Positions 6,964 through 35,420 of a stretch of 36,314 nucleotides of DNA are shown in pieces. The position numbers were made by a program, and so were the translations under genes. Under the pieces are notes generated by a model. The model was not told where the DNA came from. It did no database searches and saw only the letters and a list, made by a program, of their open reading frames with translations. Origin of the DNA: a virus. The DNA lies in IMG/VR virus record IMGVR_UViG_3300036985_002071, positions 1-36,314 of that record; one strand, 5' to 3'. Numbering within the stretch: the stretch's first letter is position 1; the number at the start of each line of letters is the position of its first letter.

Positions 6964-8178
6964 TTAGTGGTACTCAAATTCGAGCGCGAAACCGTGCTCT
7001 TGGAGTTTAGGGAGTTCGTCTGTCTCGCCGATGTGGTCCGGGTAAATCATGTCTGGGATGTGCAGCTGCTGCACCGTTTTGTAGGCCCGCTCAGCTGCCT
7101 GCGCGATGCTGCGCCCCGTCCCAAAAACAGTGCACGAGTAGTCGCCCGCAGTCGCCCACATCTCGCGCTCGACCAGATCATCTCCGTCCATGTCCGGCAT
7201 GGTGGCCATCTTCACGCTGTGTGGCGCGATATATTTTCGATTCTTCGCGGTCACGCCATAAATCGGGACGTCGATGTCTCGGCTCTGCACCAGCACGCCC
7301 ACCGCAATCGCCGTGCTCGTTTCCAGCGTGTCTTCACCCTCGCAGGCATCCAGCATCCACTGCGCTGGGTCGCCCTTATGAGTCGCTAGCATCGAACTAA
7401 ATGCCGGCCAGCTGGGCCGCGCCGTAAACCCTAGCGGCCACGCTTTGCCATCTTCATCGATGATGCAATCAATATGGATTGCGCCGTAATGCTCCAGGGC
7501 AACCAAGGCATCCTCTAGGGGTCGCAAAACCATCTCGAACAAGTCGGACCGAGTGCAGTATTTTACTACAGCACAATCCAAGCGGCCCAGCTGCTCATTA
7601 GGCAGGCCGCTGAATCCTTCTTTGCCCATCCAGCCGCCAACCGTCAAGCCACTGCCCACGATGAATTTCTGCAACATGCACGGACCATTCATTCCTGCGC
7701 GCTGCCACCGCTGCAGCAGCGCCACAAGGTCGGCAGGAGACTTGGCACAATAGGATTTGGATTCCGTCTTCACAACCCACCGCTCGCTTGATTTGCGGGC
7801 AAACGCCTCTGCTTCAACCAGCGTTTCAAATGGCTGGTGCTCCGGGCATTCGATCCAATGGTCCTCTAGAAACTCCATGCCGAAATCGATGTCGGTTTCC
7901 AGCTTTGCGGATTGCACCGATGGAGCGAACACCGCGACACCCGCCCGCCGGAAGTACTCCAGTCGCTCGAGGTATTTTTCGTTGCCGGTGGGAAAAACCA
8001 AGTCGGCCCACTTGGCGCTTTGGGTCCAGTTCTGCACGAACTCCACGCCTTTGAATCCCTGCCCGATATGTGGCGATGCATTGGGCGATAGCCAGTAGCG
8101 AACCTGATGACCTGCAGACACGCAGCGCAGAACAAAATCTAATCCAGCGTCCTCGCTTTCAATCACGAGGATTTTCAT
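6964..8178 (-). CDS. PurD-like ATP-grasp protein
   Basis: This 404-aa protein has the architecture of phosphoribosylamine-glycine ligase: an N-terminal Rossmann-like domain (MKILVIESEDAG), an ATP-grasp core (WVVKTES at 134-140, CMLQKFIVGSGLTVGG at 167-182, YGAIHIDCIIDEDGK at 231-245) and a PurD-type C-terminal domain (AAERAYKTVQQLHIPDMIY at 361-379). The start is odd for PurD because the GGREHA nucleotide-contact motif is replaced. The usual E-x-N-x-R-F-G-D metal motif also appears as LGFTARPSWPAF. It may have a changed substrate or weak activity. It overlaps the ejection-protein stop (TGATG) and sits among virion genes, not in a purine operon. Purine supply or ligation of a small molecule are both possible. 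Confidence 0.75.
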   Translation of the reverse strand: MKILVIESEDAGLDFVLRCVSAGHQVRYWLSPNASPHIGQGFKGVEFVQNWTQSAKWADLVFPTGNEKYLERLEYFRRAGVAVFAPSVQSAKLETDIDFGMEFLEDHWIECPEHQPFETLVEAEAFARKSSERWVVKTESKSYCAKSPADLVALLQRWQRAGMNGPCMLQKFIVGSGLTVGGWMGKEGFSGLPNEQLGRLDCAVVKYCTRSDLFEMVLRPLEDALVALEHYGAIHIDCIIDEDGKAWPLGFTARPSWPAFSSMLATHKGDPAQWMLDACEGEDTLETSTAIAVGVLVQSRDIDVPIYGVTAKNRKYIAPHSVKMATMPDMDGDDLVEREMWATAGDYSCTVFGTGRSIAQAAERAYKTVQQLHIPDMIYPDHIGETDELPKLQEHGFALEFEYH

Positions 8179-14316: not shown

Positions 14317-14885
14317 CACGATATTTTGATCAGGCTGGCGATCACGCTTGGGGTGTAAGGTATGTTGGGATCTGATATGGCTGCAAAAGCAAACAGCACC
14401 ATATCAACGCTGCTGGCCTGCCACGCCATTTCTATGTAATCGCCCGCTGCCATACTTAACGTAAACGAGTACTGAGCAAAAAATACCGCCTCCGGTGCCA
14501 GCGTGAACAATCGGCCTGAGTAGTTCACATCGTTGCCATTGAGCCGCAACAACAAGGCTACAGTTTGCGAATCCAGCACATCGTAGTTCGTGAACTGGAT
14601 TGACGCTTCGAGAATAAACACGCCGGCGTTGACCACTGTCATCTTGCCAGCCCCATCAGAAATTACGTTGTTGGATTCAAAAGTTTGACCAAGTTTGATG
14701 ACATAAACTTCGTCGTACGCGGTTGAAACTTGAGTAGTCGTATCAAAAAACGATCCGTAATCCCGAGCTAAAACATTCTGCTGGATTACCGTCAGCAACC
14801 AGTCAAACCATGCGCGCCACGGTGCCGTTAAAAAACTGCTTTTCTCCTGCGTGATGTTGTTGCCGGGAACCGGGAACAGGTTCAT
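14316..14885 (-). CDS. Jelly-roll-like virion protein (tail-tip or needle position)
   Basis: This 189-aa protein starts MNLFPVPGNNITQEKSSFL. The second half looks like a C1q/TNF-type beta sandwich: alternating strands GVFILEASIQF, TVALLLRLNG, FFAQYSFTLSMAAGDYIEMA and SVIASLIKIS. The order portal...gp4-gp10-this gene-ejection proteins puts it where P22 encodes the gp26 tail needle, whose relatives can end in a TNF-like knob. It lacks a long coiled-coil shaft, so the needle idea is tentative. The start overlaps the gp10-like stop (ATGA). Confidence 0.6.
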   Translation of the reverse strand: MNLFPVPGNNITQEKSSFLTAPWRAWFDWLLTVIQQNVLARDYGSFFDTTTQVSTAYDEVYVIKLGQTFESNNVISDGAGKMTVVNAGVFILEASIQFTNYDVLDSQTVALLLRLNGNDVNYSGRLFTLAPEAVFFAQYSFTLSMAAGDYIEMAWQASSVDMVLFAFAAISDPNIPYTPSVIASLIKIS

Positions 14886-16303
14886 TGTGGGCGCGCTGAG
14901 TACGCGGCCGCGCCGTCAGTGATCACGAACTTGACCGGATCTGTCAGCCGAAACCGAAACACGAAATCCCGCGACGATCCAAACCTGCGCGCAATGACCC
15001 GCGTGCTGTACTGCCCGATCTGGCCCATCGACAACATGCGAGGGTTGGACCATGTGCGCCCGTTGTCCTTGCTGACTTCCAACGTGATCATCGGATCTGA
15101 CCCTTGCCCAGACTGCAGACCCACACCCGTCTCCATGTCCAAGTACAACTCGGACAAGCTAAAAACGTTGTGGTCGGCGACCCCGTGACGGGTGACCACC
15201 TCGCGCAGGACGGTCTGCCCGTTGTCGGTGTAGGTGGTCTCCGATAACGAATAAATTACTGCCGCAGCGTAATCCGAAACCACCGCGTTGTTGGCCAGCG
15301 TGGTGGCAAATTGGCCGAGGTGCCGCTGCGCATAGCCGGTGGCAATCCCGCTCTGAACCTCGGACCAGATGCCACTGGTAAGGTCGTAGAGGAACGAACG
15401 GTTCGCGTTGGGAAATGTCAGCTGATACATCGAATGGCCGTTCGTCACATAGCTCAGCGCCACCGCATTGCCCACATACCCAAACGTGCCGATGATCTGC
15501 TCAATGTCAGCCGTGCTGATTACTTGCGCGTTATAGCCGGTCAGCGCCACCACCTGACTGGTGCCTTGCGGGTTCTGCGACAAGAACAGAATGGAATTGC
15601 CGATGTGCGCCCGCGACCAGATTGCTTGGATCCCAAACTCGCTGGTGGCCGACAAGATCGGCGCAAAGGGTTGCGGCTGGTTGCCGATGTTTTGCCAAAA
15701 CTCAATGTGGCGCTCGCTGAACACCACCAAATTGCCCGACAGCGCGTCCACCGCTTGGATGCGGTCCGGGTATTGGGACGCACTGGCAAACGCCAATCCG
15801 TTCCACGTGGTAGCGTCATACGGATCTGACACCCAAAAATATTGAGTGCCAGGTTGCTCCACCACAAAATACCCGCCCACCATCGTGCAGGTCTGCGCCC
15901 CGAACGGGAACCCTGTCGAGGTGATCACCGCAAACAACGAACTGACAAGGTTGAACGTGTAGGCAGATGCGCCATCCACGAGCAGCAGCTGGTCGTTGTC
16001 AATCGTCATCGCGACGTTGTTTGATGATGTCCCGATTGCAGCACTGCCCAGCTGCGTGCCCGCGGAGTTGTACCACCGGAAAAATGCGCCTTGGACCGTG
16101 TACAGGTAAGCCTCGGTCCCAAACATCCCGCGCACCACCGCCGTGGTGTTGAACTGCGACACCAGCCCCGGCGTTCCAAATATTGCGACCTTCGTTTTAT
16201 CGCCGTCTTCGCGGTTTTCCATGTAGCAGTTCACCCGCCGCTGGCGCGTGACAGGGTAGCTGTGTCCCGCCACCCCATTGCCAAACATTGGCACGATTTT
16301 CAT
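14882..16303 (-). CDS. gp10-like packaged-DNA stabilisation (tail hub) protein
   Basis: This 473-aa protein is almost the same length as P22 gp10 (472 aa). It begins MKIVPMFGNGVAGHSYPV, followed by RRVNCYMENREDGDKTKVAI and FGTPGLVSQF, the typical opening of this family. Repeated beta-propeller-like blades follow. ATG 16303 overlaps the upstream TGA. An open extension of 48 codons upstream in the same frame lies within the gp4-like gene and is not used. It would plug the portal channel and bind the tailspikes. Confidence 0.85.
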   Translation of the reverse strand: MKIVPMFGNGVAGHSYPVTRQRRVNCYMENREDGDKTKVAIFGTPGLVSQFNTTAVVRGMFGTEAYLYTVQGAFFRWYNSAGTQLGSAAIGTSSNNVAMTIDNDQLLLVDGASAYTFNLVSSLFAVITSTGFPFGAQTCTMVGGYFVVEQPGTQYFWVSDPYDATTWNGLAFASASQYPDRIQAVDALSGNLVVFSERHIEFWQNIGNQPQPFAPILSATSEFGIQAIWSRAHIGNSILFLSQNPQGTSQVVALTGYNAQVISTADIEQIIGTFGYVGNAVALSYVTNGHSMYQLTFPNANRSFLYDLTSGIWSEVQSGIATGYAQRHLGQFATTLANNAVVSDYAAAVIYSLSETTYTDNGQTVLREVVTRHGVADHNVFSLSELYLDMETGVGLQSGQGSDPMITLEVSKDNGRTWSNPRMLSMGQIGQYSTRVIARRFGSSRDFVFRFRLTDPVKFVITDGAAAYSARPQ

Positions 16304-17277
16304 AACTGATTCGGCTGAAAATAGATTTCGGTGCGGTCCGGGTTGGCCGACCGAGCGTAGGTAATCGATTCCTGATAGTTCGAGTCCATCTCCGGCGTCC
16401 AGACTGCGGAAAACATTGGGCAAATCTGTTTGCTCAGCCCCCAGCACAGCGCGTTAAACCACTCCGCTGCGTACTCCGGGTTGTCCAACGGGTTGTTGAA
16501 ATCCTGAATGGGCCGCAGGTACACCACATGAATTTGCTTGGTCACGTCCTGCGCGCCGGCGCAATCGATATACAACTGGCCGTTGGGTAGCTGCGCCTCG
16601 TAGTAAATGGCTGTCGGATCTGACACAGCCCCCGGTGCCGTCTTGGTCGGCAGCGCCTCGTAGGCCTCCACCGTCATGTAATCCAGCGGCGTGTCGTTGC
16701 TCACGTTGTCGCGCAATATCGCCGTGACGATTTCTAGCGGGCGCTGGCCCTTCGTGGTGTAGTTGTAGAGGTTGTTGCCTGCAGACGCGGCAGATGGCAA
16801 GCCAGAGGCTATGGTGATGAGACCGCTGCCCACCGTGGCAACCGTGGTGCTGAAAATGTCACCGCTATCCAGCTGCACCACCAGATAATCCCCAGCTGTG
16901 AAGTCAGTTGCCGACAACATGTAAAGCGTGGTGGCAGCAGGGTTGGCGTAATTGGTCAGCGGGTTGGTCGCAAAGTTAGCGCCGGGGACCGCAGTCACCC
17001 CCGCGGCCCAGTTATCGCCCGATGACCCTAGCTCATACCGGTACTGCGTCGAGGACAAGAACAAATCGGCGCGCTGCCTAGTCCAAATCTTTAGCCCGCT
17101 GGCAAAGTCATAGCGCCCCATCCACTGCTTGCAGAGCATGTTCAGCTTGCGGGCGCAGTCTGTGGTCTCCTGCGGGTCGATGCTCCCGTAGGCGTCCAGC
17201 TTGCCGATGTTTAGCATCGCCTCGCGGATGATGTCGTCACGCGTGACGGTAAAAGTGTAGGTGCCGGACGTGCTCAT
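16300..17277 (-). CDS. gp4-like tail accessory (head-completion) protein with insertion
   Basis: This 325-aa protein opens VTRDDIIREAMLNIGKLDA, then a helical pair (ETTDCARKLNMLCKQWMGRYDF), as in P22 gp4-type adaptor proteins. C-terminal PLDNPEYAAEWFNALCWGLS also fits. It is about twice the size of P22 gp4 (166 aa) because of a Thr/Ala/Gly-rich beta insertion (about residues 70-220). It joins the portal to gp10. The start overlaps the glycosyltransferase stop (ATGA). Confidence 0.8.
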   Translation of the reverse strand: MSTSGTYTFTVTRDDIIREAMLNIGKLDAYGSIDPQETTDCARKLNMLCKQWMGRYDFASGLKIWTRQRADLFLSSTQYRYELGSSGDNWAAGVTAVPGANFATNPLTNYANPAATTLYMLSATDFTAGDYLVVQLDSGDIFSTTVATVGSGLITIASGLPSAASAGNNLYNYTTKGQRPLEIVTAILRDNVSNDTPLDYMTVEAYEALPTKTAPGAVSDPTAIYYEAQLPNGQLYIDCAGAQDVTKQIHVVYLRPIQDFNNPLDNPEYAAEWFNALCWGLSKQICPMFSAVWTPEMDSNYQESITYARSANPDRTEIYFQPNQL

Positions 17278-18935
17278 TTCAGCCTCTTTTTAATTAGCGG
17301 CGCAATGGCATCGTATGCCATATCTGCCGTGATTTCAGCCTGACACTGGGCGATGCCCATCGGCAAACCATCTTCGCCGTTTGCCTGCTTGCAGTGCGAC
17401 CAGTCGTAGTGCAGCTGGTGGCACGCGGAAACCTCATTCTGTCCACGCCCTGGACAATGCGTTTCACGCGCCCACAGACTTTTGGTGTTGGTCCAGTCCC
17501 GCGTGAGGTTTTCCACTGTGCTGTGGCTGAGGAAACAGACCTTGGGCATTGGCTCCTGAGAAACCGCATTGAGCACGCCGGTCTCCGGCCCGATGACCAT
17601 ATCGGCATGCAAGGCAAACGTCATGGTCTGCCGAATGGACCAGTCGCCGCAAAACGGATGCACGCGCCGTTCGGTCTGCATCTTCTGGCCGTCCACCCGC
17701 TTGGGTTGGCCGTTCTCGTCTGGCTCAAACCATCCTTGCTCGAGGATTACGCCCGCAGGCCCGCCCACGAACACCACGTGCACATCCTCAAAGTCGATCA
17801 TGAGACGCGCCACGATCTGATCTACGTAGGGCCAGACTTTGTGCACGGATGACCCCGCCAGCGACCACACGACCACGAACTGGCCCATCTTGACGCGGGT
17901 CTCTCGCGCCCACTGGTTCTCAGCCGGCAGCGCATAAAACTTAACCGCCGGACGGTGCGCAATGCCTGCGGTGGCATGTTGGAACCACAGATAATTTTCG
18001 TTGCACATCTTGTGGCGTAATTTCGGTGGCGCCTGATGCATGAACCGCCCCGGTATTGGTAGCAGGGTTCCTTCGGCAGATTCCGATAGGTTGATCCAAC
18101 GGTCGTATTTCTTCTGATGCCAATCCCAGAACAGGCCCAGTTGAGCGTTCGGGACTTGGTTCACGTCTTGAAGGTAGAAGTCGTCGATATTCGGATCGTG
18201 CTCGATGATGTCCGAGCCGGGAGGAGAGCACAGCACGGTCACGTGATAGCCTTCCTTTTTCAGCCCCGCAAACACGCTGGAGGCTTGCAGGATGTCGCCG
18301 AACGCGCCATACCGCACTACTGCGGCAGTCTTGGTGGGTTTCGGTTTGCGGCAGCTGTAGCGCCATTCAAGCGCCTTGTCGGCCATCTCTGAATGCTCAG
18401 GCTCTGCCAGTTTCTCAAACACGGCAAACAGGCTGTATTCCATGCGCTCGTTGCGCTGTTCCAGCACTCGGCAATCCCAGCTACCTACCGTCTGCATGGC
18501 GCTGATCAGAGCGTCCTCGCTGACATTCCACTTGTGATCTGGGTTAGCGTGCGGCTCGCCGACCTTGGGATATAAATCCTCATGCGGTAAGTAGAGCACG
18601 AGGTAACCACCCACCTTGAGCACGCGCCACCATTCCGCAAGGCATGCGCTCACCTTGTCGTAGTCGATGTGCTCGAGCAGGTGCGAGGAGTAGACAGCGT
18701 CGTAGGCGGCTGTGTTGAATAGGTCGAGGTTGCAGGCGTCTCCGATCCAAATATCGGGCTTTACATCAATCCCGAATAGCTGGATGTCGATGCCGGAATC
18801 CAAGCCGATGAAGTGCGGGAAACCCTTGTTCCTGCCGCACCCGATGTCGAGCACGCGGCCCCGCGTCCAGCGCACCAGCTCCCACGTAATCTTGCCCGAT
18901 TCGTTCCCTTGCGGGTCTTCTAATCTCCAAACCAT
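17274..18935 (-). CDS. Methyltransferase-GT9 glycosyltransferase fusion
   Basis: This 553-aa two-domain enzyme has an N-terminal class I SAM-dependent methyltransferase (about 25-160) with motif I VLDIGCGRN, an aspartate at the end of the second strand (IDVKPDIWIGDA), SSHLLEHIDYDK and WRVLKVGGYLVLYLPHEDL. The C-terminal half (about 185-553) looks like GT9, the ADP-heptose:LPS heptosyltransferase family, with VRYGAFGDILQASSVFAGLK, VVWSLAGSSVHKVWP, VVFVGGPAG and HADMVIGPETGVLNA. The start has GGGGGA at correct spacing. A 47-base gap upstream, unusually wide here, suggests an acquired unit. It sits between capsid genes and the gp4-like gene. The likely role is transfer of a heptose or similar sugar and methylation of the product. 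Confidence 0.82.
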   Translation of the reverse strand: MVWRLEDPQGNESGKITWELVRWTRGRVLDIGCGRNKGFPHFIGLDSGIDIQLFGIDVKPDIWIGDACNLDLFNTAAYDAVYSSHLLEHIDYDKVSACLAEWWRVLKVGGYLVLYLPHEDLYPKVGEPHANPDHKWNVSEDALISAMQTVGSWDCRVLEQRNERMEYSLFAVFEKLAEPEHSEMADKALEWRYSCRKPKPTKTAAVVRYGAFGDILQASSVFAGLKKEGYHVTVLCSPPGSDIIEHDPNIDDFYLQDVNQVPNAQLGLFWDWHQKKYDRWINLSESAEGTLLPIPGRFMHQAPPKLRHKMCNENYLWFQHATAGIAHRPAVKFYALPAENQWARETRVKMGQFVVVWSLAGSSVHKVWPYVDQIVARLMIDFEDVHVVFVGGPAGVILEQGWFEPDENGQPKRVDGQKMQTERRVHPFCGDWSIRQTMTFALHADMVIGPETGVLNAVSQEPMPKVCFLSHSTVENLTRDWTNTKSLWARETHCPGRGQNEVSACHQLHYDWSHCKQANGEDGLPMGIAQCQAEITADMAYDAIAPLIKKRLK

Positions 18936-18982
18936 GTGATCCCCCGTTTGTTTTACCCCGACGGGAGTTTACACCAAGGGGA

Positions 18983-19363
18983 TTAGTCCCAAAGAACGTT
19001 CCAAATGCCGGGAGTGCCAGCCGTCACCAGAACCAATTGGCCGTTGAAACGCACGCCAGTCCCGCCAGGTCCGGGGTTGGCTTGGAAACCCACCGCTGTG
19101 GCCGTCTGCACGGCATGCAAGGCGTTAGTGGTTGTCACGGTCCCCACGGCATAAACGTCAAACGGCGCAGCTGTCCATGCCGTGCCAACAGCGATGCAGT
19201 TCAGACCGTAGTAAACGCCGCCGGTGGCGGGATGGACGGTGGCGGTTCCAGCAGTTGAAATCACCGCGTAATCCGCGCAGCCGACGGAGTACACAAGCCC
19301 GCTGCCGGCATCCATGCTGCAAACGGCCAAAGGCATTGCATTACTTGGGGGTGAGATTGGCAT
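18983..19363 (-). CDS. Hypothetical virion-associated protein, 126 aa
   Basis: This Gly/Ala/Thr/Val-rich beta-type protein begins MPISPPSNAMPLAVCSMDAG and ends GTPGIWNVLWD. It lies directly after two small paralogous proteins and before the glycosyltransferase, within the capsid cluster. Decoration or minor head protein is possible. The start forms TAATG with the previous stop. I do not recognise the family. Confidence 0.65.
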   Translation of the reverse strand: MPISPPSNAMPLAVCSMDAGSGLVYSVGCADYAVISTAGTATVHPATGGVYYGLNCIAVGTAWTAAPFDVYAVGTVTTTNALHAVQTATAVGFQANPGPGGTGVRFNGQLVLVTAGTPGIWNVLWD

Positions 19364-19779
19364 TACATTCGTTCCGTGAAATTGTTGCGCTGAACGAATC
19401 CGCTAACGTCGTCGACCAAGCGGTAATCGTCATCGGTTTTTAACTCGGCTTTCTTGTCGAAACCTGTGCGCAGGGATACCGCGTTGACTTCTTTGTTGGT
19501 GAAGTCGCCGTAGGCATACCCCTCGCACAAGTTGCCCGAGATGCACGTGCCCATCTGTCGGATGTCCGAAAATTCTTGATCTTCGATGTCCATGCCCGGA
19601 GGCAGGGAGTTCACGAATAGGGTGTTGGTCCCATATCTGGACAAACAGTCATCACCGGCGCGGCCCTCCCGCCCCGGGATGTCTTTCTTCGCTCTGGATT
19701 CCATGTCCGTCTGCCAGCCATGCTCCTCGGTTACATCCGGGAAATCTACTTGAAACTTCTCTTGCACTATCTTGAGCAT
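19363..19779 (-). CDS. Capsid-cluster protein, paralogue A, 138 aa
   Basis: This charged, soluble protein carries a block at residues 54-76 with core PGMDIEDQE and DIRQM that is nearly repeated in its neighbour (18 of 23 positions identical). The flanking sequence is not obviously alike. It lies between coat-proximal genes and ends in TAATG with the next gene. The shared block may bind the same partner, for example the capsid surface. The function is unknown. Confidence 0.65.
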   Translation of the reverse strand: MLKIVQEKFQVDFPDVTEEHGWQTDMESRAKKDIPGREGRAGDDCLSRYGTNTLFVNSLPPGMDIEDQEFSDIRQMGTCISGNLCEGYAYGDFTNKEVNAVSLRTGFDKKAELKTDDDYRLVDDVSGFVQRNNFTERM

Positions 19780-19792
19780 GGCTGGCTATCCC

Positions 19793-20272
19793 TTAGATTT
19801 TGGCTGTGCCGACGTGACTGACCATAGGACCGCGCCCCATGTCTTTCTCGTCCGACCCTAAAGAGCCTGCGGTCCGGGTGGTCCAACCATCGCCGGGGAA
19901 ACCCATACCGCCCTCGTAGACATTCATCTTCATCTGACGAATATCGCAGTTCTCTTGGTCTTCGATGTCCATGCCGGGAGAGAGCGAGTTGTAAAAAGCG
20001 TTTACCCCGAATTCCAGCCCTTTCTTGGCTAAATATCCGTTCTGCTTCACGCCCACCATCTCGTTATTCACCATCATCGCCGATTCCGGCATGTTGTCGA
20101 TGTCAGCCACTTCCGTGTTTTTCATCTCATGCCGAGTTTGACCACGAGCATTCGCGCTCTTGATCACGTCCTGCATTGTCGGCGCAGTCTCGCCGTACAT
20201 CGGCGTAGCAAGCTGGGCCGCAGTCACCTGCGGCGTCTCGTACTGCTTTTTGCTTTGGGTAATTTTAGGCAT
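19793..20272 (-). CDS. Capsid-cluster protein, paralogue B, 159 aa
   Basis: The protein begins MPKITQSKKQYETPQVTAAQ and contains the shared block at residues 92-114 (NSLSPGMDIEDQE then DIRQM). GGGGGA stands before the ATG. The N-terminal half is polar and helical, and the C-terminus is Gly-rich. Together with paralogue A it forms a divergent duplicate pair in the head region. No catalytic motif is visible. Confidence 0.68.
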   Translation of the reverse strand: MPKITQSKKQYETPQVTAAQLATPMYGETAPTMQDVIKSANARGQTRHEMKNTEVADIDNMPESAMMVNNEMVGVKQNGYLAKKGLEFGVNAFYNSLSPGMDIEDQENCDIRQMKMNVYEGGMGFPGDGWTTRTAGSLGSDEKDMGRGPMVSHVGTAKI

Positions 20273-20281
20273 CTGTCCCCC

Positions 20282-20815
20282 TTATCCGGTCACGTTAGCG
20301 AGCGGCTGTACTTGGTAATCGACCACAAAATGCGACACCGCAGTTGCGTCCGTCCCGCCGTTAATTTGGAACGTATCGCCCTGATTGATGGCGTAACCGT
20401 AAAGCCCCGCCGTGCCCGTGCCGGTGTTGAGAGCCTGACGAAAACTTGCGCCAATCTGCCCCGTCCCAGTGCCAGAGGTTGAATACAGATCAGGCGAAAA
20501 CCTTGCAAGCGTGTCAGTTGCCAACGCGATGGCAGCGCCCACTGCAGCCGTGTTGTAAATTCGCAGGCACGTGTACTGGTTTGCCGCGACATGGACCGTC
20601 ATGGTCGTGCCGTTCGGATAGTACTGGGTCTGCGTGTAGGTGCTGGTGCCGACTGTCGACGCCAAACCCGAAACCGACATCAACTGCAGGTTAGCGTGCG
20701 CAACAAACTTCAGAATGCTGCTCGCGCCCGCGGCCATCGTAGCGTTGAAGGTTCCACGCGACTGATATGCCGGGTGGTCATAACCAAAATTGGTCAGCGT
20801 ATTAGTTAAGCTCAT
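20282..20815 (-). CDS. Putative head decoration protein, 177 aa
   Basis: This Thr/Ala/Gly-rich beta protein begins MSLTNTLTNFGYDHPAYQSR and lies directly downstream of the coat gene with the clear AAGGAG ribosome-binding site. Small beta-rich proteins in this place are often capsid decoration or cement proteins. That role is inferred from position and composition, since no specific family signature was recognised. Confidence 0.65.
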   Translation of the reverse strand: MSLTNTLTNFGYDHPAYQSRGTFNATMAAGASSILKFVAHANLQLMSVSGLASTVGTSTYTQTQYYPNGTTMTVHVAANQYTCLRIYNTAAVGAAIALATDTLARFSPDLYSTSGTGTGQIGASFRQALNTGTGTAGLYGYAINQGDTFQINGGTDATAVSHFVVDYQVQPLANVTG

Positions 20816-20826
20816 TTTCTAGCTCC

Positions 20827-21798
20827 TTAAGCCAAGCTATCCCACTTCACGATACGAACGTTCGTAGCGAGAGTGTGAACAATGCCGAAACCGCCGAGGT
20901 AATACCACGCGATGCCCTTTGAGCGACCGTAGTCGGTCGGGATTTTGCCGCGCATTTCTTCAGGAACAGCGATTGCCTCTGCCACCGTGTCGTTGCCAAA
21001 GAAAAAGCACCAATCCGACTTACCGTTAGTCCAGGCCGTAGTGGTCACGCCATCCGTGCCGGTGCCCTTGGCAATGTTGGTCTGCTCAATGAAACGGACG
21101 TTCTCATAACGCCCAATCTCGCCGTTCATGATCAGCGCAAAGCCGGTGTCCGAGTACTGGTGGATGGTTTCGAGGTTGTTTTTGAACGTCCGCAGGGTTG
21201 TTGGCCACGCGATGGAATAATAATCGTCGGCGATGAAAGCCGGGATATTGCGTTCCTTCATGGCGTCCACGATCGACTTCACATGGCTGTTGTTGAGAGC
21301 AATGTTGTTTGTGCCAGTGACCGTGCCGTTGGTGAACAGCTGAATTGCAGCCGTGTCCGTGCCGCTTGATGCGATCACTCGGATCAACGTCTGGTTGAAC
21401 TGGGTCCACGCACCGCGGTCTAGGTACTTCACGCAGTCATTCTTGAGAACCTTCTTGATCACGTCCTCGATGGGAAACTTCGACAGGTTGTCGAGCTTGC
21501 CGGAGTACGGGACCGAGTTGCCGGCCTCAGTAATGGTCAGCGTGCCCTGCACAATGGTGAAATTGGTCTCCGGCATCGTGTTGGTTTCCACCAGCACCGC
21601 GCCAGCTGTGGCTACGTCAGAGAAAACGTCCCAAGTGAACAGGTCGCCCTTCTTTTTGCCCTGCTGACTGATGTCATGGACGTCGGCGAACTGACGGAAT
21701 TTTACGAGCGGCTGCACGTTGGCGCGCAGAACATTGGATAGCTGGCGGCTGTACATAAAGCCCCCCAGCGAGTTAACAGCCCAAACTTGTCCAGCCAT
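20827..21798 (-). CDS. Major capsid protein (N4-gp56-like)
   Basis: This 323-aa protein fits the N4-gp56 family of HK97-fold coat proteins: RQLSNVLRANVQPLVKFRQF, KKKGDLFTWDVFSD, a typical GTLTITEAGNSVPYSGKLD followed by LSKFPIEDVIKKVLKNDCVKYLD, then NNSHVKSIVDAMKERNIPAF and GEIGRYENVRFIEQTN in the second half. It follows scaffold, and the ribosome-binding site AGGAGGC (minus strand, 21811-21805) is the strongest in the cluster, as expected for the most abundant protein. Confidence 0.88.
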   Translation of the reverse strand: MAGQVWAVNSLGGFMYSRQLSNVLRANVQPLVKFRQFADVHDISQQGKKKGDLFTWDVFSDVATAGAVLVETNTMPETNFTIVQGTLTITEAGNSVPYSGKLDNLSKFPIEDVIKKVLKNDCVKYLDRGAWTQFNQTLIRVIASSGTDTAAIQLFTNGTVTGTNNIALNNSHVKSIVDAMKERNIPAFIADDYYSIAWPTTLRTFKNNLETIHQYSDTGFALIMNGEIGRYENVRFIEQTNIAKGTGTDGVTTTAWTNGKSDWCFFFGNDTVAEAIAVPEEMRGKIPTDYGRSKGIAWYYLGGFGIVHTLATNVRIVKWDSLA

Positions 21799-26334: not shown

Positions 26335-26353
26335 GGGTTAGGCATGGGTTAGG
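26334..26353 (-). repeat. Tandem CCTAACCCATG repeat at the start of the membrane-protein gene
   Basis: On the minus strand the 11-base unit CCTAACCCATG occurs twice in a row between the tailspike stop (TAA 26351-26349) and the membrane-protein ATG (26334-26332). The first ATG opens a four-codon frame (MPNP) whose TGA overlaps the real start. The duplication creates a second reinitiation site and marks an insertion junction. Confidence 0.75.
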
Positions 26354-28175
26354 CAAGGTTTACAAAGGGGGACAGGATCCCAGAGCCGGGATAATTTGTG
26401 TTAGTGCTCATAAAGGTAACTGCATACGCATAAGTGCCGCCGAGTCTGTTTTCGATGTATAGCCGATTGGTCGCCGTGTCTGCGCTAACTGTTAGCCTCC
26501 CGATGGTGCCAGTCGTGCCGGTCAATTGGCCGGTGGTAGCGTTTAAATTGGCGGTGACGGACATAGAGGTTAATGATCCAGACGCTCCAACCCTGAACGT
26601 CAATAATCCGCTTTGAGCGGCAGCGGCATTTCCCCCAATTAACACCAGCCCTTTGGTCACATCATCGTATTCAAAATATCCGGCTTTGTCATTCAGCAGG
26701 GTAATTACATCGGGCTGTGCAGATCCGTTTTGTACTCCGCCAGATGCCATCTGTTGCGTCTGAGCCGTAATGTTTGCGCCGTTGAAACGTTCTTCCCATA
26801 GCGTGTTGAGAGGACGATTTGTTAATACCGCAATCCCCGCCGCAGACGTTGCGTCCCCTTGGTTGCAATCAACGAGGACGCCGCGAACACCAGAGCTAGA
26901 ACCAATCGAAACAACAGGGTTAAAATACCCCGCGCCGCCGGTGCTATTCACGACGTATAGTCCGGTTATTTCAACGCCGCGAGAAAATGTGGCCGTTGAT
27001 GGCGCAGGCGCTACAACATACGCAGCCGGAGTTGTGCACTGGATCATCCGATGGTTAATCAACTTGATATTGACGCCGCGAATGACCGCGCTTGACGTTG
27101 CGGGCGCATTGCTTGGGAACTCTGCCCTGCCGTCAAATGCGCAAGAAATAAGCGTGTGCGACAAACCACTTAAATAAAGATTTGCAATTGCAGGCGTGGA
27201 AATGCAATTTGCGGCAATAATTGTGTTGTAAAAAGATTCAAATTGGATGGCAACCACGCGATAACAAGCGTCGGTCCCGTCCACTTCGGCAGCGCCGCCG
27301 CCCACGCGCAAGCCATGGCCACCAGTCCATGCTGACGTGCAATTTAAAAACGTGACCATGCCTGTTACAACGCGATTGGTAAACGAAACGTAAGAGCCGC
27401 CCGCCACCATGAAGCCGGAGCCTTTTACGCAGTTAACTTCGCAGTTTTGCACAATGCTATTGACCACATCGTTGGCAAACAAAATCCCGTCGCCGTTTTG
27501 ATTCATGACCCGCAGATTTATTAGGCTGGCATGTCGAGCGGTCTGATAGCCCGCTGCGTCGTTAGGGCAAACCATAACGCCGGCATCAGCTATCGCAAAA
27601 CTTGCTGCGTAGGCTGTAGCCGATCGCGCAATGGTCATGTCTGAAACCGTGCAACCTTGCGCTTTGATGCGAATTACTGCGCCGCCGTTAAAATCCCCAA
27701 TGATTTGAGTTGCGCTTACATTAAGCCCAGTTCCAACCACGCCGGCGCTTCCCGTTGCACTCCGCGTATTTCCGCCGCCGCCATCGCCTATAAATGACAT
27801 CCCCACGGCATCCATGATCAATGAGGAAGTGACGCGGTAACTCCCCGCTGGGAAACTGAGTATTTTCCCCGCGTTTTTTGTTGCCGTAATCGCCGCCTGA
27901 ATCGCCGCAGTGTCATCCGTCACCCCATTACCAACAGCGCCAAAATCCAAAACGCTCACGCTTTCGCGCAGCTTGGATTGGACCGTGGTGGCAACAGCGC
28001 CGGTGCCTGATGCAATGTGCCCGATTAGCGAGGAGCCAGTAGACGCAGACAGGCCCGGAAGCGCCCCCGCGTAGACTTCGGTGAAGTTCGCGTTGACCTT
28101 CTGGAAGGCCGTGCGGGCTTGGTCGCCGGTCTGGTCGTTAGGGACGGTGCCGACGTTGATCGTTTGCTGTGTCAT
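26349..28175 (-). CDS. Tailspike 1, pectate-lyase-type beta-helix
   Basis: This 608-aa protein has the N-terminal anchor MTQQTINVGT..., with TGDQARTAFQKVNANFTEVY shared with tailspike 2. It is followed by VSVLDFGAVGNGVTDDTAAI, the hallmark opening of a pectate-lyase-like right-handed beta-helix. Repeated short strands (for example VNSIVQNCEVNCVKGSGFMV) make up the helix, and a beta-rich C-terminal domain follows from about residue 480. The enzyme would bind and probably cut a host surface polysaccharide. The base composition is more AT-rich than in neighbouring genes, suggesting exchange between phages. Confidence 0.88.
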   Translation of the reverse strand: MTQQTINVGTVPNDQTGDQARTAFQKVNANFTEVYAGALPGLSASTGSSLIGHIASGTGAVATTVQSKLRESVSVLDFGAVGNGVTDDTAAIQAAITATKNAGKILSFPAGSYRVTSSLIMDAVGMSFIGDGGGGNTRSATGSAGVVGTGLNVSATQIIGDFNGGAVIRIKAQGCTVSDMTIARSATAYAASFAIADAGVMVCPNDAAGYQTARHASLINLRVMNQNGDGILFANDVVNSIVQNCEVNCVKGSGFMVAGGSYVSFTNRVVTGMVTFLNCTSAWTGGHGLRVGGGAAEVDGTDACYRVVAIQFESFYNTIIAANCISTPAIANLYLSGLSHTLISCAFDGRAEFPSNAPATSSAVIRGVNIKLINHRMIQCTTPAAYVVAPAPSTATFSRGVEITGLYVVNSTGGAGYFNPVVSIGSSSGVRGVLVDCNQGDATSAAGIAVLTNRPLNTLWEERFNGANITAQTQQMASGGVQNGSAQPDVITLLNDKAGYFEYDDVTKGLVLIGGNAAAAQSGLLTFRVGASGSLTSMSVTANLNATTGQLTGTTGTIGRLTVSADTATNRLYIENRLGGTYAYAVTFMSTNTNYPGSGILSPFVNLA

Positions 28176-28182
28176 TTTTAAC

Positions 28183-28212
28183 CTATGCGCTCAGGTGTTG
28201 GAGGTTGGTCAT
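28183..28212 (-). pseudogene. Remnant start of the membrane-protein gene (MTNLQHLSA)
   Basis: The minus strand from ATG 28212 reads MTNLQHL then SA and TAG. Seven residues and nearly all bases match the true gene start at 26334 (MTNLQHLAI), across 22 bases with one mismatch. Its ATG overlaps the stop of tailspike 2 as ATGA. The remnant shows where the membrane gene once followed tailspike 2 before tailspike 1 was inserted. The mini-ORF may now help ribosomes reach tailspike 1, which has a weak ribosome-binding site. Confidence 0.8.
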
Positions 28213-30218
28213 GGCAAAACTTCGTAAGTAACTGAGCCTATAAGATTTAATGTTCCTGCGGATGGCGTGTCGGCCGCTACAACAAAAGAAGCCCCAACAG
28301 CAGAACCGCTTGCTTGGATATTAATTTGAGTATTGCTTGATTCTTTTCTGCACGCAAAATTAGTGTATGTGGCTTTTGTAATTCCACCAAAAACCAAAGC
28401 GCCAATCGATGGGGTAACAACAGTAGTTGAAATCACTGGTAGCCCCGTTATAAGCAAATTTCCCGACGCAGTTGTGAACGTAAACGATGCCGTGAGAATC
28501 GTGAACGTGACGGTGCACAAATTGCCCTTTTGCATAGAACGGCCAATGCGAGTCGTATAGGTGACGGCCAAGTCCCCCGGCACAGCAAACGTAATGGTTG
28601 GAGAAAAGGCTACCGGAAGCCCAATAACTCGCGTCCATGTAGCAGTATTGGTAATGTTGACGGTATTTAAATAGAAAGCGTTGTTTTCAATTACGCCATA
28701 GTTACTTGTGCCGCTAGTAGAAATTGCGCTTGCGCCGGTGTTGCCAATGCCGCTAAACGTATTGTTGGTAATGACAGCAGACGCCACGGTTGAAACGCTA
28801 ACGCCACCAGTGGTTACTGTCACTTCGCCCACATCGCGAAACTGACATGCGTCTACAATTAACTCGGTAGTTGTGTTAGACCCAACAAAATCTATGGCCC
28901 AATTGTCTATATTGGCAAATTTGGTTCCGCCCGTGAACGAAACTTGATACACGTTTTCACCGCAAACAACGCCTTTGCCCGAATAATTGCCAATAAATCC
29001 GTTGTTAAAAGAAACGGAAAAAACAGTCCCTAACGCAGAAACTGGAAAGTTAATCCCGTTTCGATTAGCCGGCGCTGCCGCCATTCCAATGCCGTCTAGG
29101 TAAACGTTCTCAAAGGCTAAATTTGCAACGTATTGCGCCGCCGTAACTACTTTTATGAACACTTCGTCGCTGTAAGCGCCGTTAAGGTACCCGTTAGTTA
29201 TGTGCAGCCCATCGCAAGACTCGACTCGAATGCCTTTATCCAAGCAACGATTTGCGCCGACTATGATATTTGTAACTTCGCAGGTGTAACAGTTTTGATA
29301 AAGACCGCCGTCGATTGGAGCTTCGCAAAATCGCACAGCTTGACTGTTTGCCACTGGCGCCCCGGTTAGCACAGCGGAAGACGCAAAGATTGTGGCCGCG
29401 TTAAAAACGTTTAGCTGCCCGCCGGACACCAACAAACCTTCTGGGTGATTTTGAATTTGTACACGATCTAAGCGAAAAACGTTGCATTGCAATGCATAGA
29501 CGCCAGCGCCAGCAGTTTTGTTGGCGATAGAATAAATTAGCATGTCGGCAATGCCGCAATTGTTTAAAAATACGCTTGTCGCTGTTGTGTTGTTGGGGAA
29601 AAATTTTAGCGCATGTCCCGTTAAGGACGTGTTTTTAATAATTGTTCCAACCCCGTCGCCTTCCAATCTCGTATTGGAGCTAACGATGGTTAATGCAGAC
29701 GAAATAATGTAGGTAGCCGCCGGAAAATACACTTTTTTCCCCGCCCCAGCCGTAATTGCAGCTTGAATCGCCGCCGTATCGTCCGTGAACCCATCGCCCA
29801 CAGCGCCGAAATCCAAAACGCTCACAATCGGGATAATTTTCGACGGGATAATCTGGAACCGCGTGCCGTCGTAGGTCGCCATCACAATCTGGCCCAGCTT
29901 GATGTCGCCCTGCGTTAGCGCCGTGCTGCCCTGCTTGGTGATGGGCTTGGCACCTAGCCCGTTGATGTTGAGCGTGGTGGCCCCTGTGTTGGCTCCTGCG
30001 GCCACGAACGACACCGTGCTGCCCGTGAAGTAGGCCGTGTAAGTTGTCGAGGTTGCCGTGACGGTGTTGGTGCCGGCCACTGCAGACAGCAGGATTGCGC
30101 CGCCGATGCCGTTGTAAAGCTCGCCGAAGTTGCTGTTGATTTTCTGAAACGCGGTGCGCCCCGGATCGCCGGTGTTGTCGCCGATGAGCGTGCCCACGTT
30201 GATCAATTGCTGCGTCAT
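28209..30218 (-). CDS. Tailspike 2, pectate-lyase-type beta-helix
   Basis: This 669-aa protein has a longer anchor than tailspike 1: MTQQLINVGTLIGDNTGDPG, then about 90 residues of Thr/Ala/Gly-rich beta structure ending QIVMATYDGTRFQIIPSK. It then shares VSVLDFGAVGDGFTDDTAAI with tailspike 1. A beta-helix follows with repeats such as GVVCGENVYQVSFTGGTKFAN, and a C-terminal beta domain. It begins immediately after the TerL stop (TAGATG). The AT-rich composition again differs from TerL and portal genes. The two spikes may recognise different glycans. Confidence 0.88.
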   Translation of the reverse strand: MTQQLINVGTLIGDNTGDPGRTAFQKINSNFGELYNGIGGAILLSAVAGTNTVTATSTTYTAYFTGSTVSFVAAGANTGATTLNINGLGAKPITKQGSTALTQGDIKLGQIVMATYDGTRFQIIPSKIIPIVSVLDFGAVGDGFTDDTAAIQAAITAGAGKKVYFPAATYIISSALTIVSSNTRLEGDGVGTIIKNTSLTGHALKFFPNNTTATSVFLNNCGIADMLIYSIANKTAGAGVYALQCNVFRLDRVQIQNHPEGLLVSGGQLNVFNAATIFASSAVLTGAPVANSQAVRFCEAPIDGGLYQNCYTCEVTNIIVGANRCLDKGIRVESCDGLHITNGYLNGAYSDEVFIKVVTAAQYVANLAFENVYLDGIGMAAAPANRNGINFPVSALGTVFSVSFNNGFIGNYSGKGVVCGENVYQVSFTGGTKFANIDNWAIDFVGSNTTTELIVDACQFRDVGEVTVTTGGVSVSTVASAVITNNTFSGIGNTGASAISTSGTSNYGVIENNAFYLNTVNITNTATWTRVIGLPVAFSPTITFAVPGDLAVTYTTRIGRSMQKGNLCTVTFTILTASFTFTTASGNLLITGLPVISTTVVTPSIGALVFGGITKATYTNFACRKESSNTQINIQASGSAVGASFVVAADTPSAGTLNLIGSVTYEVLP

Positions 30219-31844: not shown

Positions 31845-32151
31845 GGTTCGGTCCTTTGATCGTCACGTCTTCGTAGATTATTTCATGCTTCTCTCGCCAG
31901 CCGGCCTGCGCCTTGAGCCAAAAGATAGCTGCCGCGATGTTGCCGTTGATGGCTTCGCGGAACAGCATCTTGGCGACCTGCGCGTTGGCTTTGGCCTTGC
32001 CTAGGTCCAGTTCGTCCCGGTAACGGTCGTAGAGCGTCACGTGCGAGATGCCGATAAGGCGCGCAATGTCCCGGTGTGGCACTCCCACCGCAGCGTAGGC
32101 TTCCACCTCGGTACGCTGGCGCTCTGTGGGCTTATGCAGTTTCGCAGGCAT
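31771..32151 (-). CDS. terS: Terminase small subunit
   Basis: This 126-aa protein has an N-terminal helix-turn-helix, VEAYAAVGVPHRDIARLIG with ISHVTLYDRYRDEL, which binds the packaging site. A helical oligomerisation segment follows (AKANAQVAKMLFREAING), then NIAAAIFWLKAQAGWREKHE, a family hallmark. It overlaps the methyltransferase gene by 20 bases and terL by 74. It selects phage DNA and hands it to TerL. Confidence 0.9.
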   Translation of the reverse strand: MPAKLHKPTERQRTEVEAYAAVGVPHRDIARLIGISHVTLYDRYRDELDLGKAKANAQVAKMLFREAINGNIAAAIFWLKAQAGWREKHEIIYEDVTIKGPNLEDLRNRLDSALEGRAAAEEHSLQ

Positions 32152-33367
32152 GGGTCACTAGCTCATCGTAGGTCTTGCCGCTGGACGCCAGCACAGCCGC
32201 CTTGCCGGTGAAGTTCTGCCACCGCTTGATGGCGACATCGACATAGGCTGGGCTTAGCTCGATGGCATGGCAGCACCGGCCCGTCATCTCAGCCGCAATG
32301 ATCGTAGTGCCGCTGCCGCTGAATGGTTCGTAAACCGCCTGTCCGGGACTGCTGTTGTTCTCGATGGGACGCTTCATGCATTCCACGGGCTTCTGCGTGC
32401 TGTGGCCGGTGTCGTTCTTGATGTGCTCAATTCGCCAGACCGTCGATTGCTTCCGATCACCAGCCCAATGCGCTGTCTCGCCTTTCTTCACCGCGTAAAG
32501 CGCCGGCTCATGCTGCCAATGGTACGCGCCACGCGAAAACGCTGGGCGTGTCTTTACCCACACGATCTGAGCACGGAGACCAAACTTCGATGCTTTGAGA
32601 GAGTCGGCCACGGTCGCCGCGTGCAAGCCGTCATGCCAAACGTACGCCACAGCGCCCGGAAACAGCGCCCACGCCTCACGCCAGTCTGCGCGGTCATCGT
32701 TCAAAACCACTCCCAGCGCAGCGCCCTTGGACCCAGCGCCTACGGAATTTCGCCATGATGGATCGTAGTTAACGCCGTAGGGTGGGTCGGTCACCATTAG
32801 GTGCGGAGTCGCGCCGGCCAGCGCCATATCGACCACTAGCGCATCGGTGCAATCCCCGCACACCAGCCGGTGCTTGCCCAGCAGCCACACATCACCCAGC
32901 ACGGTGATGGGGTTGTCGGTGGCAGCTGGCGCATCGTCTGGATCTGTCAGGCCTTCGGTAATCGTGGCCAGCAGCGCCTCCAGTTCCTGCTCCGAGAACC
33001 CCACCAGCGACAAATCGAAGTGCTCCTCCTGCAGCGCCTCTAACTGCTCGCGCAGCAAATCAGCATCCCAGCCGGCATTGACCGCAATCTGATTGTCGGC
33101 GATGACCAGTGCCCGCTTCTGAGCCGGTGTCAGGCCGTCCATTACGATGGCAGGTAGTTCTAGCAGCCCCTCTGCTTGCGCCGCCTGTAGCCGCCCGTGG
33201 CCCGCCACAATCAGCCCGTCCTCATCCACTAGGATTGGGTTGGTGAAGCCAAACTCCCGGATGCTCTTTCGGATCTGCTCAACTTGCCCTGCGCTGTGCG
33301 TGCGCGGGTTTTTCTCATACGGCTTGAGGTCCGCAATGGGAATTTGTTTGTAAGTGTAAAACTTCAC
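32132..33367 (-). CDS. ParB-like domain fused to DNA N4/N6 methyltransferase
   Basis: This 411-aa protein has an N-terminal ParB/Srx-like domain (IADLKPYEKNPRTHS, with VAGHGRLQAAQ at 54-64) that precedes a DNA methyltransferase of the beta group. Motif IV DPPYG is at 194-198 and motif I EPFSGSGTT at 347-355, and the order IV before I defines the group. HSTQKPVECMKR before motif I is the conserved partner. It is an orphan, with no restriction gene near. Masking of packaging-proximal DNA from host restriction is the usual suggestion. It overlaps the terS start by 20 bases. Confidence 0.92.
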   Translation of the reverse strand: MKFYTYKQIPIADLKPYEKNPRTHSAGQVEQIRKSIREFGFTNPILVDEDGLIVAGHGRLQAAQAEGLLELPAIVMDGLTPAQKRALVIADNQIAVNAGWDADLLREQLEALQEEHFDLSLVGFSEQELEALLATITEGLTDPDDAPAATDNPITVLGDVWLLGKHRLVCGDCTDALVVDMALAGATPHLMVTDPPYGVNYDPSWRNSVGAGSKGAALGVVLNDDRADWREAWALFPGAVAYVWHDGLHAATVADSLKASKFGLRAQIVWVKTRPAFSRGAYHWQHEPALYAVKKGETAHWAGDRKQSTVWRIEHIKNDTGHSTQKPVECMKRPIENNSSPGQAVYEPFSGSGTTIIAAEMTGRCCHAIELSPAYVDVAIKRWQNFTGKAAVLASSGKTYDELVTHACETA

Positions 33368-34059: not shown

Positions 34060-34875
34060 TTAGGGCGCGGTATAACACGCCAATAAAGTATCGTCTATTT
34101 CCTCCGCAGAAACCAAAACTTGAACCGGACAGACGGCGGTCCCCGGCTGGCCCACAACATACCCTGCGGCCACGTTCGCCAGCACGGCTGCATCCTCCAG
34201 TGATTTGCCGATAGCCAGCATCGCTGCCAGCACAGCCACCACCGTATCGCCGGCCCCGGTAACGTCGTAGACCTGCTTCGCCTTCGCTTCAATCTTGATG
34301 GAATCTTTACCTTTTTGGTCCAGCCACATGCCTCTAGAGCCTAGTTTGTACAAGATGTTTGGGGACTCCACGGTCATTGTTTTGGCCTCTAATTCGTTCG
34401 GGCAGATGACCGTGGCGCCTGCGTACTTCGCCCAGTCGTGTCCTTTTGGGTCCACGACCACTGGGATCCCGCGCTTGTTCGCCTCGCGGATGAGCGTCTG
34501 GCACTGCTCAAACCCACACCAGCCCTTGGCGTAATCGCTGATGATCAAGCAATCGATGTTCTGCCGCAGCTCAGCGCGCCCCGGCTTTGACATCTTGTCG
34601 GCGTCCACGCGCAGCAGCTGGTGACCCGCGACCAGATATCGGTGCTTCTCGGACCAGTCGCAGAACTCCGATAGCGTGCTGATGGTTCGGACCCCCAGCG
34701 TGTCCAGATTCCGGACAACATTGGCTGCGCCCCCGGCCCGCGAGTCTCGCGAGGTTTCCACAAAAACCGGGACAGGCGCTTCGGGACAGATTCGGTCGCT
34801 CTTGCCGTGGTGGTAGATGTCCAGAATCCCATCGCCCCAAACTTGCACCCGAGCCTTGCGCAGCGCCTCGATCAT
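34060..34875 (-). CDS. Heptose kinase (HldE/RfaE N-domain type, PfkB family)
   Basis: This 271-aa PfkB-family sugar kinase is closest to the kinase domain of HldE, which phosphorylates D-glycero-D-manno-heptose 7-phosphate at C1. Signatures are SDRICPEAPVPV (26-37), SRAGGAANVVRNL (45-57), ISDYAKG (112-118), VVDPKGHDW (140-148) and VYDVTGAGDTVVAVLA (202-217, catalytic D210). It lacks a block of roughly 40 residues found between the GGAAN motif and the QLLR motif of cellular enzymes, and the nucleotidyltransferase half is absent. It is coupled to gmhA (ATGA), so the two likely act in sequence. Confidence 0.88.
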   Translation of the reverse strand: MIEALRKARVQVWGDGILDIYHHGKSDRICPEAPVPVFVETSRDSRAGGAANVVRNLDTLGVRTISTLSEFCDWSEKHRYLVAGHQLLRVDADKMSKPGRAELRQNIDCLIISDYAKGWCGFEQCQTLIREANKRGIPVVVDPKGHDWAKYAGATVICPNELEAKTMTVESPNILYKLGSRGMWLDQKGKDSIKIEAKAKQVYDVTGAGDTVVAVLAAMLAIGKSLEDAAVLANVAAGYVVGQPGTAVCPVQVLVSAEEIDDTLLACYTAP

Positions 34876-35420
34876 CGGGGTATCCCCTTCTCAATCCCGC
34901 TCAGCAGCAGGTGCACGATCAGCAGGTGCAGCTCTTGGATCCGCGCCGTGCTCTGGCTTGGCACGATGAGGTCCACATCGGTGTGGGCCGGGAAACCTTT
35001 CTTGCCACTGATGCCCAGCACCCCCATCCCTTTCTTGTGCGCTACCGCCAGCGCCTCGCAGACGTTCTTGCTGGTCCCGCTGGTGCTGAAAGCCACCAGA
35101 CAGTCTCCAGGTTGCCCGATGGCTTCGACCTGGCGCGAGAAAATGCGATCAAACCCGTAGTCGTTTCCGCAGGCAGTAATAGCCACCGCGTCAGCCGAAA
35201 GACTCGCCGCAGCCATGGCGCGCCGGTCTCCCAGAAACCGAACCGTCAGCTCTGCCGCCAAGTGACTGGCCTGCGCCGCGGAGCCGCCGTTGCCGCAGGT
35301 GAGGATCTTGCCACCCTCGGCCAGCGTGCGCAGAAGCATGAAGGTAGCCGGCTCCAGTCGCAGGCTCAGCATCTCCTGCGCGTCGGCCAGCACCGCCAGG
35401 TGTTCTTGGATCTCACTCAT
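34872..35420 (-). CDS. gmhA: Phosphoheptose isomerase (GmhA-like, SIS domain)
   Basis: This 182-aa enzyme converts sedoheptulose 7-phosphate to D-glycero-D-manno-heptose 7-phosphate. The SIS motifs are CGNGGSAAQASHLAAEL (42-58), GNDYGF (85-90), STSGTSKNV (112-120) and STARIQELHLLIVH (157-170). Residues E57, Q162 and H170 fall where E. coli GmhA has its catalytic set. DiaA/YraO-type SIS proteins are related, but these residues favour GmhA. Its neighbour is the heptose kinase, so the pair gives heptose 1,7-bisphosphate. Phosphatase (GmhB) and nucleotidyltransferase steps would need host enzymes. Confidence 0.9.
   Translation of the reverse strand: MSEIQEHLAVLADAQEMLSLRLEPATFMLLRTLAEGGKILTCGNGGSAAQASHLAAELTVRFLGDRRAMAAASLSADAVAITACGNDYGFDRIFSRQVEAIGQPGDCLVAFSTSGTSKNVCEALAVAHKKGMGVLGISGKKGFPAHTDVDLIVPSQSTARIQELHLLIVHLLLSGIEKGIPR

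Follow-up and report, generated by a model that had tools for sequence, protein, structure and literature searches.

A methyltransferase fused to a GT9-type glycosyltransferase in the head module of an uncultured phage lineage

ADP-heptose is a shared precursor of LPS. The closest described systems include the heptosyltransferases WaaF, WaaC and WaaQ (PF01075; TIGR02193/02195/02201), which carry the signature D(T/S)(G/A)xxH; in WaaC, Asp261 and His266 of this signature contact the heptose, and WahF, from a proven heptosyltransferase group, departs from it at the first position, with Ser261 (PMC3559599). TibC, a member of the BAHT family together with AAH, heptosylates proteins from ADP-D,D-heptose and possesses an iron finger formed by Cys339/342/358/370, with the spacing 2-15-11 (PMC4358343). 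Among phages, the capsid and tail tube of mycobacteriophages are glycosylated (Freeman et al. 2023, as cited in PMC12619734), and the summary given in PMC12619734 has a phage-encoded glycosyltransferase proposed to decorate capsid or tail proteins. A literature search for phage ADP-heptose or for GT9 enzymes in a capsid region yielded nothing on point; the Campylobacter paper PMC4283603 concerns host genes.

Here we describe a fused enzyme encoded in the viral record IMGVR_UViG_3300036985_002071, the whole of which (36,314 nucleotides) is referred to below as the window. The enzyme resembles WaaF, WaaC and WaaQ in its GT-B fold, which spans the entire domain (Z 20-23 against WaaF and WaaC), and has in common with them the catalytic Asp of the GD motif, the Lys of HKxW and the TG of the donor-binding loop, at 10-15% identity; unlike these proteins, it has Glu and Asn for the Asp and His of the signature, a four-Cys element and a fused methyltransferase, and is encoded in a phage head module. 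With TibC and AAH it shares the GT9-like fold, the approximate location of four Cys near the C-terminus and, in some relatives, ADP-D,D-heptose genes without an epimerase, a protein acceptor being only proposed for the phage enzyme. It differs from them in having a methyltransferase instead of a beta-barrel at the N-terminus, in the Cys spacing, in the TIGR04414 profile, which it does not match, and in its surroundings, where no autotransporter is seen. The enzyme would be TibC-like in logic, yet it is outside the BAHT family. The mycobacteriophage systems, as summarized in PMC12619734, belong to other hosts, and a virion glycan in the phage family considered here is a prediction.

Domains and active-site residues

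The features of the fused protein are as follows.

17274..18935, minus strand: fused SAM methyltransferase and GT9-fold glycosyltransferase, 553 aa, intact frame with an ATG start
18402..18935, minus strand: class I SAM methyltransferase domain, residues 1-178, with motif I (LDIGCG) at 29-34 and the acidic Asp46
18342..18401, minus strand: linker, residues 179-198, model confidence low
17283..18341, minus strand: GT-B domain of the GT9 type, residues 199-551, as judged by fold and by PF01075 matches of relatives
18294..18296, minus strand: Asp214 in the motif RYGAFGD, equivalent of the catalytic base WaaC Asp13 / TibC Asp110
17838..17840, minus strand: Lys366 in HKxWP, equivalent of WaaC Lys192, aligned to KRWP of WaaF
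17568..17585, minus strand: ETGVLN, residues 451-456, standing where the heptosyltransferase signature is expected
17343..17456, minus strand: four conserved Cys (494, 505, 515, 531), a candidate site for metal binding whose location resembles that of the iron finger in TibC

The first-pass annotation recognized a SAM methyltransferase and a GT9-like domain in this single frame, a reading that is confirmed by the intact ORF, the profile matches and the fold, so that the identity of the enzyme is hardly in doubt. A profile search with the window protein identifies PF08241 (E 2.2e-9, residues 29-114), and comparison of the predicted model with known structures retrieves 3dli with Z 16.2 (164 aligned, rmsd 2.8). 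Motif I, the presence of Asp46 after strand 2 in 17 of 17 rows, and the Rossmann-type fold are those of class I SAM methyltransferases. The existence of 79 fused homologs and the values of dN well under dS in both domains argue against a chance frame.

The GT9 assignment stems from the profiles of the relatives and from the fold, not from profile matches of the window protein, which itself matches no GT9 profile in Pfam or NCBIfam. In a profile search, PF01075 is matched by 30 of 56 relatives (best 8e-11) and TIGR02193, heptosyltransferase I, by 31 of 56 (best 9.9e-8); the best NCBIfam matches of the relatives are heptosyltransferase profiles, and the BAHT profile TIGR04414 is reached by 1 of the 56, at E 0.15 only. 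A search of PDB profiles started with a 13-sequence profile identifies only 3tov and 1psw, both with E >1; the search started with a 56-sequence profile gives 3tov with E 0.014. HHalign comparisons with single E. coli sequences give low probabilities (WaaF 7.5, WaaC 0.4, WaaQ 9), and the probability of 76 obtained for WaaU applies to a 49-column piece only. The motif alignment with WaaF is of low probability, is anchored by the motifs and serves only as a guide. The predicted model of the whole protein has pTM 0.80 and the AlphaFold2 model of the glycosyltransferase domain alone has pLDDT 95.1 and pTM 0.92. The latter model matches 3tov (Z 23.9, 286 aligned, 3.8 A), WaaF (Z 23.1, 275 aligned, 3.9 A), WaaC (Z 20.2, 263 aligned, 4.0 A) and TibC (4rap; Z 20.3, 268 aligned, rmsd 3.3). 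A plant NDH-complex subunit also matches, with Z 19.2-19.6, and unrelated GT-B folds reach Z 14.2 or less, a clear step below GT9. By predicted fold and by sequence, then, the domain is a member of the GT9 clan.

A degenerate donor pocket in the predicted structure, named earlier as a refuting outcome, was not observed: the key positions stay conserved throughout the family, two of them with a uniform change. Asp214, aligned to the GD of WaaF, is kept in 55 of the 55 rows that have a letter at this position, and Lys366 in 56 of 56. Every complete member (98/98) has ETGxxN in place of the signature D(T/S)(G/A)xxH, and the family is therefore filed in the GT9 clan rather than as a heptosyltransferase proper. 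Judging by motif spacing, Pro300 and Trp305 of TibC could occupy the same two signature sites. The four C-terminal Cys are kept in 55-56 of 56 rows, mostly with the spacing 10-9-10 to 15.

Place in the head module and inheritance

The neighborhood of the enzyme gene includes the following features.

14882..16447, minus strand: head closure Hc3 / P22 gp10-like protein, phrog_578, E 3.3e-90
16300..17277, minus strand: gp4-like / head-tail adaptor-type gene, phrog_12985 (function unknown)
18936..18982, minus strand: intergenic gap of 47 nt with a G-rich ribosome-binding-like stretch
18983..20815, minus strand: four small head-cluster ORFs of 126/138/159/177 aa, candidate acceptors
20827..21798, minus strand: major capsid protein, phrog_1357

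The location inside a head-completion cluster, claimed by the first-pass annotation, is upheld by the capsid gene upstream and the P22 gp10-like head closure gene downstream, and the stop of the enzyme frame shares 4 nt with the start of the gp4-like gene. The virion or late-gene position proposed for the window gene extends to the relatives, which keep the same place in the head module: all 72 loci that are long enough on this side have the major capsid gene upstream of the enzyme, and 91 of 93 have the gp4-like gene downstream of it, within 60 nt in 80 of these, although the loci were collected with the enzyme as the query and this positional conservation is hence conditional on homology. 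The gap that separates the enzyme from the upstream ORF 18983-19363 is, at 47 nt, wide for this operon, as had been remarked. No promoter-like site was found in it (18936-18982) and its hairpin is not above chance (z -0.77), so the gap was dropped as a candidate regulatory element.

Several observations concern the neighboring genes in their own right. With the GTG start listed for it, 14882-16447 would share 148 nt with the gp4-like gene; as the match to head closure sets in only at residue 56, translation probably begins close to 16303. The adjacent small genes 19363-19779 and 19793-20272 match each other, both containing the motif PGMDIEDQE..DIRQM, and this pair is conserved in the lineage but belongs to no known family. 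In many relatives, the interval just upstream of the enzyme is variable and contains varied ORFs, some of them Ser/Thr/Gly-rich or fibre-like. In one locus, the row of small head genes is interrupted by a gene for a GT2-family glycosyltransferase (L040:2398-3441; PF00535, E 1.6e-16), and in other members a small protein with the approximate pattern RSxPFGTIxGHxxAxxEQDGxLFD is often encoded directly before the fused gene (L018:9279-10004, L037:9609-9965, L040:5891-6214, L105:8608-9462). The late tail/ejection cluster includes a conserved PurD/ATP-grasp-like gene (6964-8178, minus strand, in the window; L145:4839-6155), in which GARS_C is weak in the window (E 0.005) and GARS_A is over the cut-off in L145; this is a second non-structural enzyme among the virion genes. 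Elsewhere in the window, 32132-33367 (minus strand) encodes an N6/N4 DNA methylase with a ParB-like domain fused at the N-terminus (PF02195, PF01555; phrog_498).

Two scans, one of them with a single diverged query, identified about 100 homologous loci in uncultured viral contigs. A genome scan added four homologs in bacterial genomes, namely two Paraburkholderia genomes, a Nevskia MAG and a Methylophaga MAG; there were none among 50,697 phage records or 72,556 plasmid records. In a Burkholderiaceae sample, one of 398 genomes encodes the enzyme, the same copy that was found in the genome scan. The copy in Paraburkholderia sp. C35 belongs to an integrated prophage, with phage genes followed by ordinary host genes on the same contig.

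Among the non-duplicate loci, the two domains are fused in 79 and encoded by two genes in 15, a further 7 are truncated 5', and L108 shows only the glycosyltransferase. The split state is present at least twice on the glycosyltransferase tree, and in one case is nested among fused forms, which makes fission the simpler reading in that case. In L088 (7384-9784), where the two domains are separate genes, a tail-spike-like gene intervenes. In unsaturated close pairs, dN/dS is about 0.02-0.1 for both domains. Glycosyltransferase distances track those of the capsid (Mantel rho 0.78) and of the gp4-like protein (Mantel rho 0.71), with 0 of 500 permutations as high in either comparison. Given this purifying selection, the constant position and the co-inheritance with head genes, the enzyme seems to belong to the ancient core of the lineage and to have been passed on vertically, rather than being a transient gain. 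There are also 55 capsid relatives without the enzyme, e.g., Escherichia phage PTXU04, in which small genes occupy the interval.

ADP-heptose genes and the donor

Two genes of the ADP-heptose pathway are present in the window, about 16 kb from the enzyme.

34872..35420, minus strand: GmhA-type sedoheptulose-7-phosphate isomerase (TIGR00441 E 3.2e-52, PRK13936 E 4.6e-56, below the curated cut-offs)
34060..34875, minus strand: HldE domain I-type heptose-7-phosphate kinase, shortened (TIGR02198 E 1.3e-63, below the cut-off)

These are the only ones of the four ADP-heptose genes in the window, which is possibly incomplete. GmhA is encoded by the window and by 12 of 37 related viral contigs. Of the 38 contigs that include the window, 12 encode the HldE-type kinase and 14 have at least one ADP-heptose gene. 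Seven contigs, among which G031/G032 and G033/G034 look like near-duplicates, hold all four genes (GmhA, HldE kinase, HldE adenylyltransferase and GmhB), e.g., as a tandem operon in L142:2690-5115, on the contig of L099. As judged from sequence, this set is a complete predicted route from sedoheptulose-7-phosphate to ADP-D,D-heptose; the epimerase HldD was found in none of the 23 contigs examined. The background among the 50,697 phage records is 12 for GmhA and 33 for the kinase, and those of these records that carry an informative organism name, all except one titled only 'Bacteriophage', are distinct from the 55 enzyme-less capsid relatives. Heptose genes are thus very strongly enriched compared with phage records at large, although the p-values exaggerate the effect because the contigs are interrelated.

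Most of the enzyme-bearing contigs, including several longer than 35 kb, show no heptose genes; such contigs may be incomplete, or the phages may draw on the host pool. On the glycosyltransferase tree, the heptose genes are scattered over several separate parts. Their distribution takes 5 changes, where shuffling gives 7.0 on average and a count as low in 57 of 500 cases; a single origin is not indicated, and the signal is not a strong one. The pairing of the enzyme with a phage GmhA and kinase, suggested by the first-pass annotation, accordingly holds as far as it recurs in relatives and falls short in the distance and in the absence of these genes from most contigs: it is a tendency, not a rule.

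These observations make a donor of the ADP-heptose type probable. The rather improbable alternative is that the enzyme, through its Glu/Asn pair, prefers a different ADP- or nucleotide-sugar and that the heptose genes of the relatives serve something else. The invariant ETGxxN, at sites whose WaaC counterparts both contact heptose, speaks for this alternative, all the more as uniform fixation argues for a specific function, not decay, and most contigs have no visible heptose genes. However, the departure of WahF at the first site, the possible placement of TibC Pro300/Trp305 at the same sites, inferred from spacing, and the enrichment of heptose genes argue against it.

Proposed role and acceptor

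We tentatively propose that the protein acts late and decorates a virion protein with a heptose-like sugar that bears a methyl group. The GT9-type domain would move the sugar onto a hydroxyl of a virion protein encoded in the same operon. The donor would be a nucleotide sugar, most likely a D,D-series ADP-heptose, made by the phage pathway where present and possibly by the Gram-negative host elsewhere. The methyltransferase domain would then cap the attached sugar, or the acceptor, with a methyl group. The donor is deduced from the recurrence of phage heptose genes; gene position alone is what points to late expression, to the acceptor and to the reaction order. A virion protein as the acceptor we rate at even chances, the candidates being the four small ORFs (18983-20815) and the tail spikes (26349-30218). 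The earlier suggestion of heptose on virion proteins, LPS or another acceptor is in keeping with the GT9 fold, the catalytic residues, the position and the link to heptose genes, but the counterparts of WaaC Asp261/His266 are Glu/Asn throughout. For virion heptosylation in particular, this altered sugar-contact signature in every member is an argument against, as is the fact that the four-gene sets are found only in contigs that also hold thymine-hypermodification genes.

The first-pass annotation also considered the host LPS core as the target, with superinfection exclusion as the outcome. In this reading, the enzyme would add and methylate a heptose there and so block the adsorption of further phages, or of released progeny to debris. 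The known GT9 enzymes act mostly on the LPS core, the best profiles of the relatives are those of LPS heptosyltransferases, the identified hosts (Paraburkholderia, Nevskia, Methylophaga) are Gram-negative, and with at least one member being an integrated prophage, lysogenic conversion is possible. The fixed place of the enzyme inside the head module and its shared inheritance with the capsid and gp4-like genes make this target less favoured, and HldD, needed for the L,D-heptose of the inner core, is missing from the phage pathway, although the host can supply it; we consider an LPS acceptor unlikely.

Phage thymine hypermodification brings in another acceptor, a hypermodified DNA base, with (methylated) heptose placed on bases of the 5-hydroxymethyl-deoxyuridine type. 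A thymidylate-synthase-like gene and a gene for the 5-hmdU DNA kinase helical domain (HMUDK_hel) are present in 9 of 38 contigs, all seven complete heptose sets are in such contigs, some of them near these genes, and DNA-glycosylating phage glycosyltransferases are among the enzymes covered by the PMC12619734 summary. Yet the hypermodification genes are not general companions of the enzyme: 29 of the 38 contigs, some possibly incomplete and the window among them, show none. Moreover, heptose genes occur without the DNA genes in G000, G006, G009, G018, G027, G029 and G030, DNA-modification genes occur without heptose genes in G002, and the enzyme sits among head genes. DNA is not required as the acceptor and we hold it to be quite unlikely overall, although it may apply to the contigs that carry the hypermodification genes. 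Finally, a pseudo-enzyme, that is, a head protein that keeps the enzyme folds for a structural role, would fit the fixed place between capsid and neck genes but is highly improbable given the two conserved active sites, the purifying selection on both domains and the 15 loci in which the domains are separate genes.

Virion decoration, as the favoured reading, has a more specific form, which we regard as doubtful: a large podovirus-like uncultured lineage with its own ADP-D,D-heptose pool, in which the fused enzyme O-heptosylates and methylates capsid or neck proteins as a phage counterpart of TibC. The four-gene phage set is notable by itself, given the place of its product among LPS precursors, and the enzyme marks a phage lineage that is absent from cultivated phage records; its presence in Paraburkholderia prophages opens the question to experiment. 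Phages with both the enzyme and the donor genes may decorate their own particles by a hitherto undescribed route. Should a virion protein prove to be the acceptor, the range of protein heptosylation, a modification described for bacterial autotransporters, would widen to phage particles, and a Gram-negative case would join the few phage virions known to be glycosylated.
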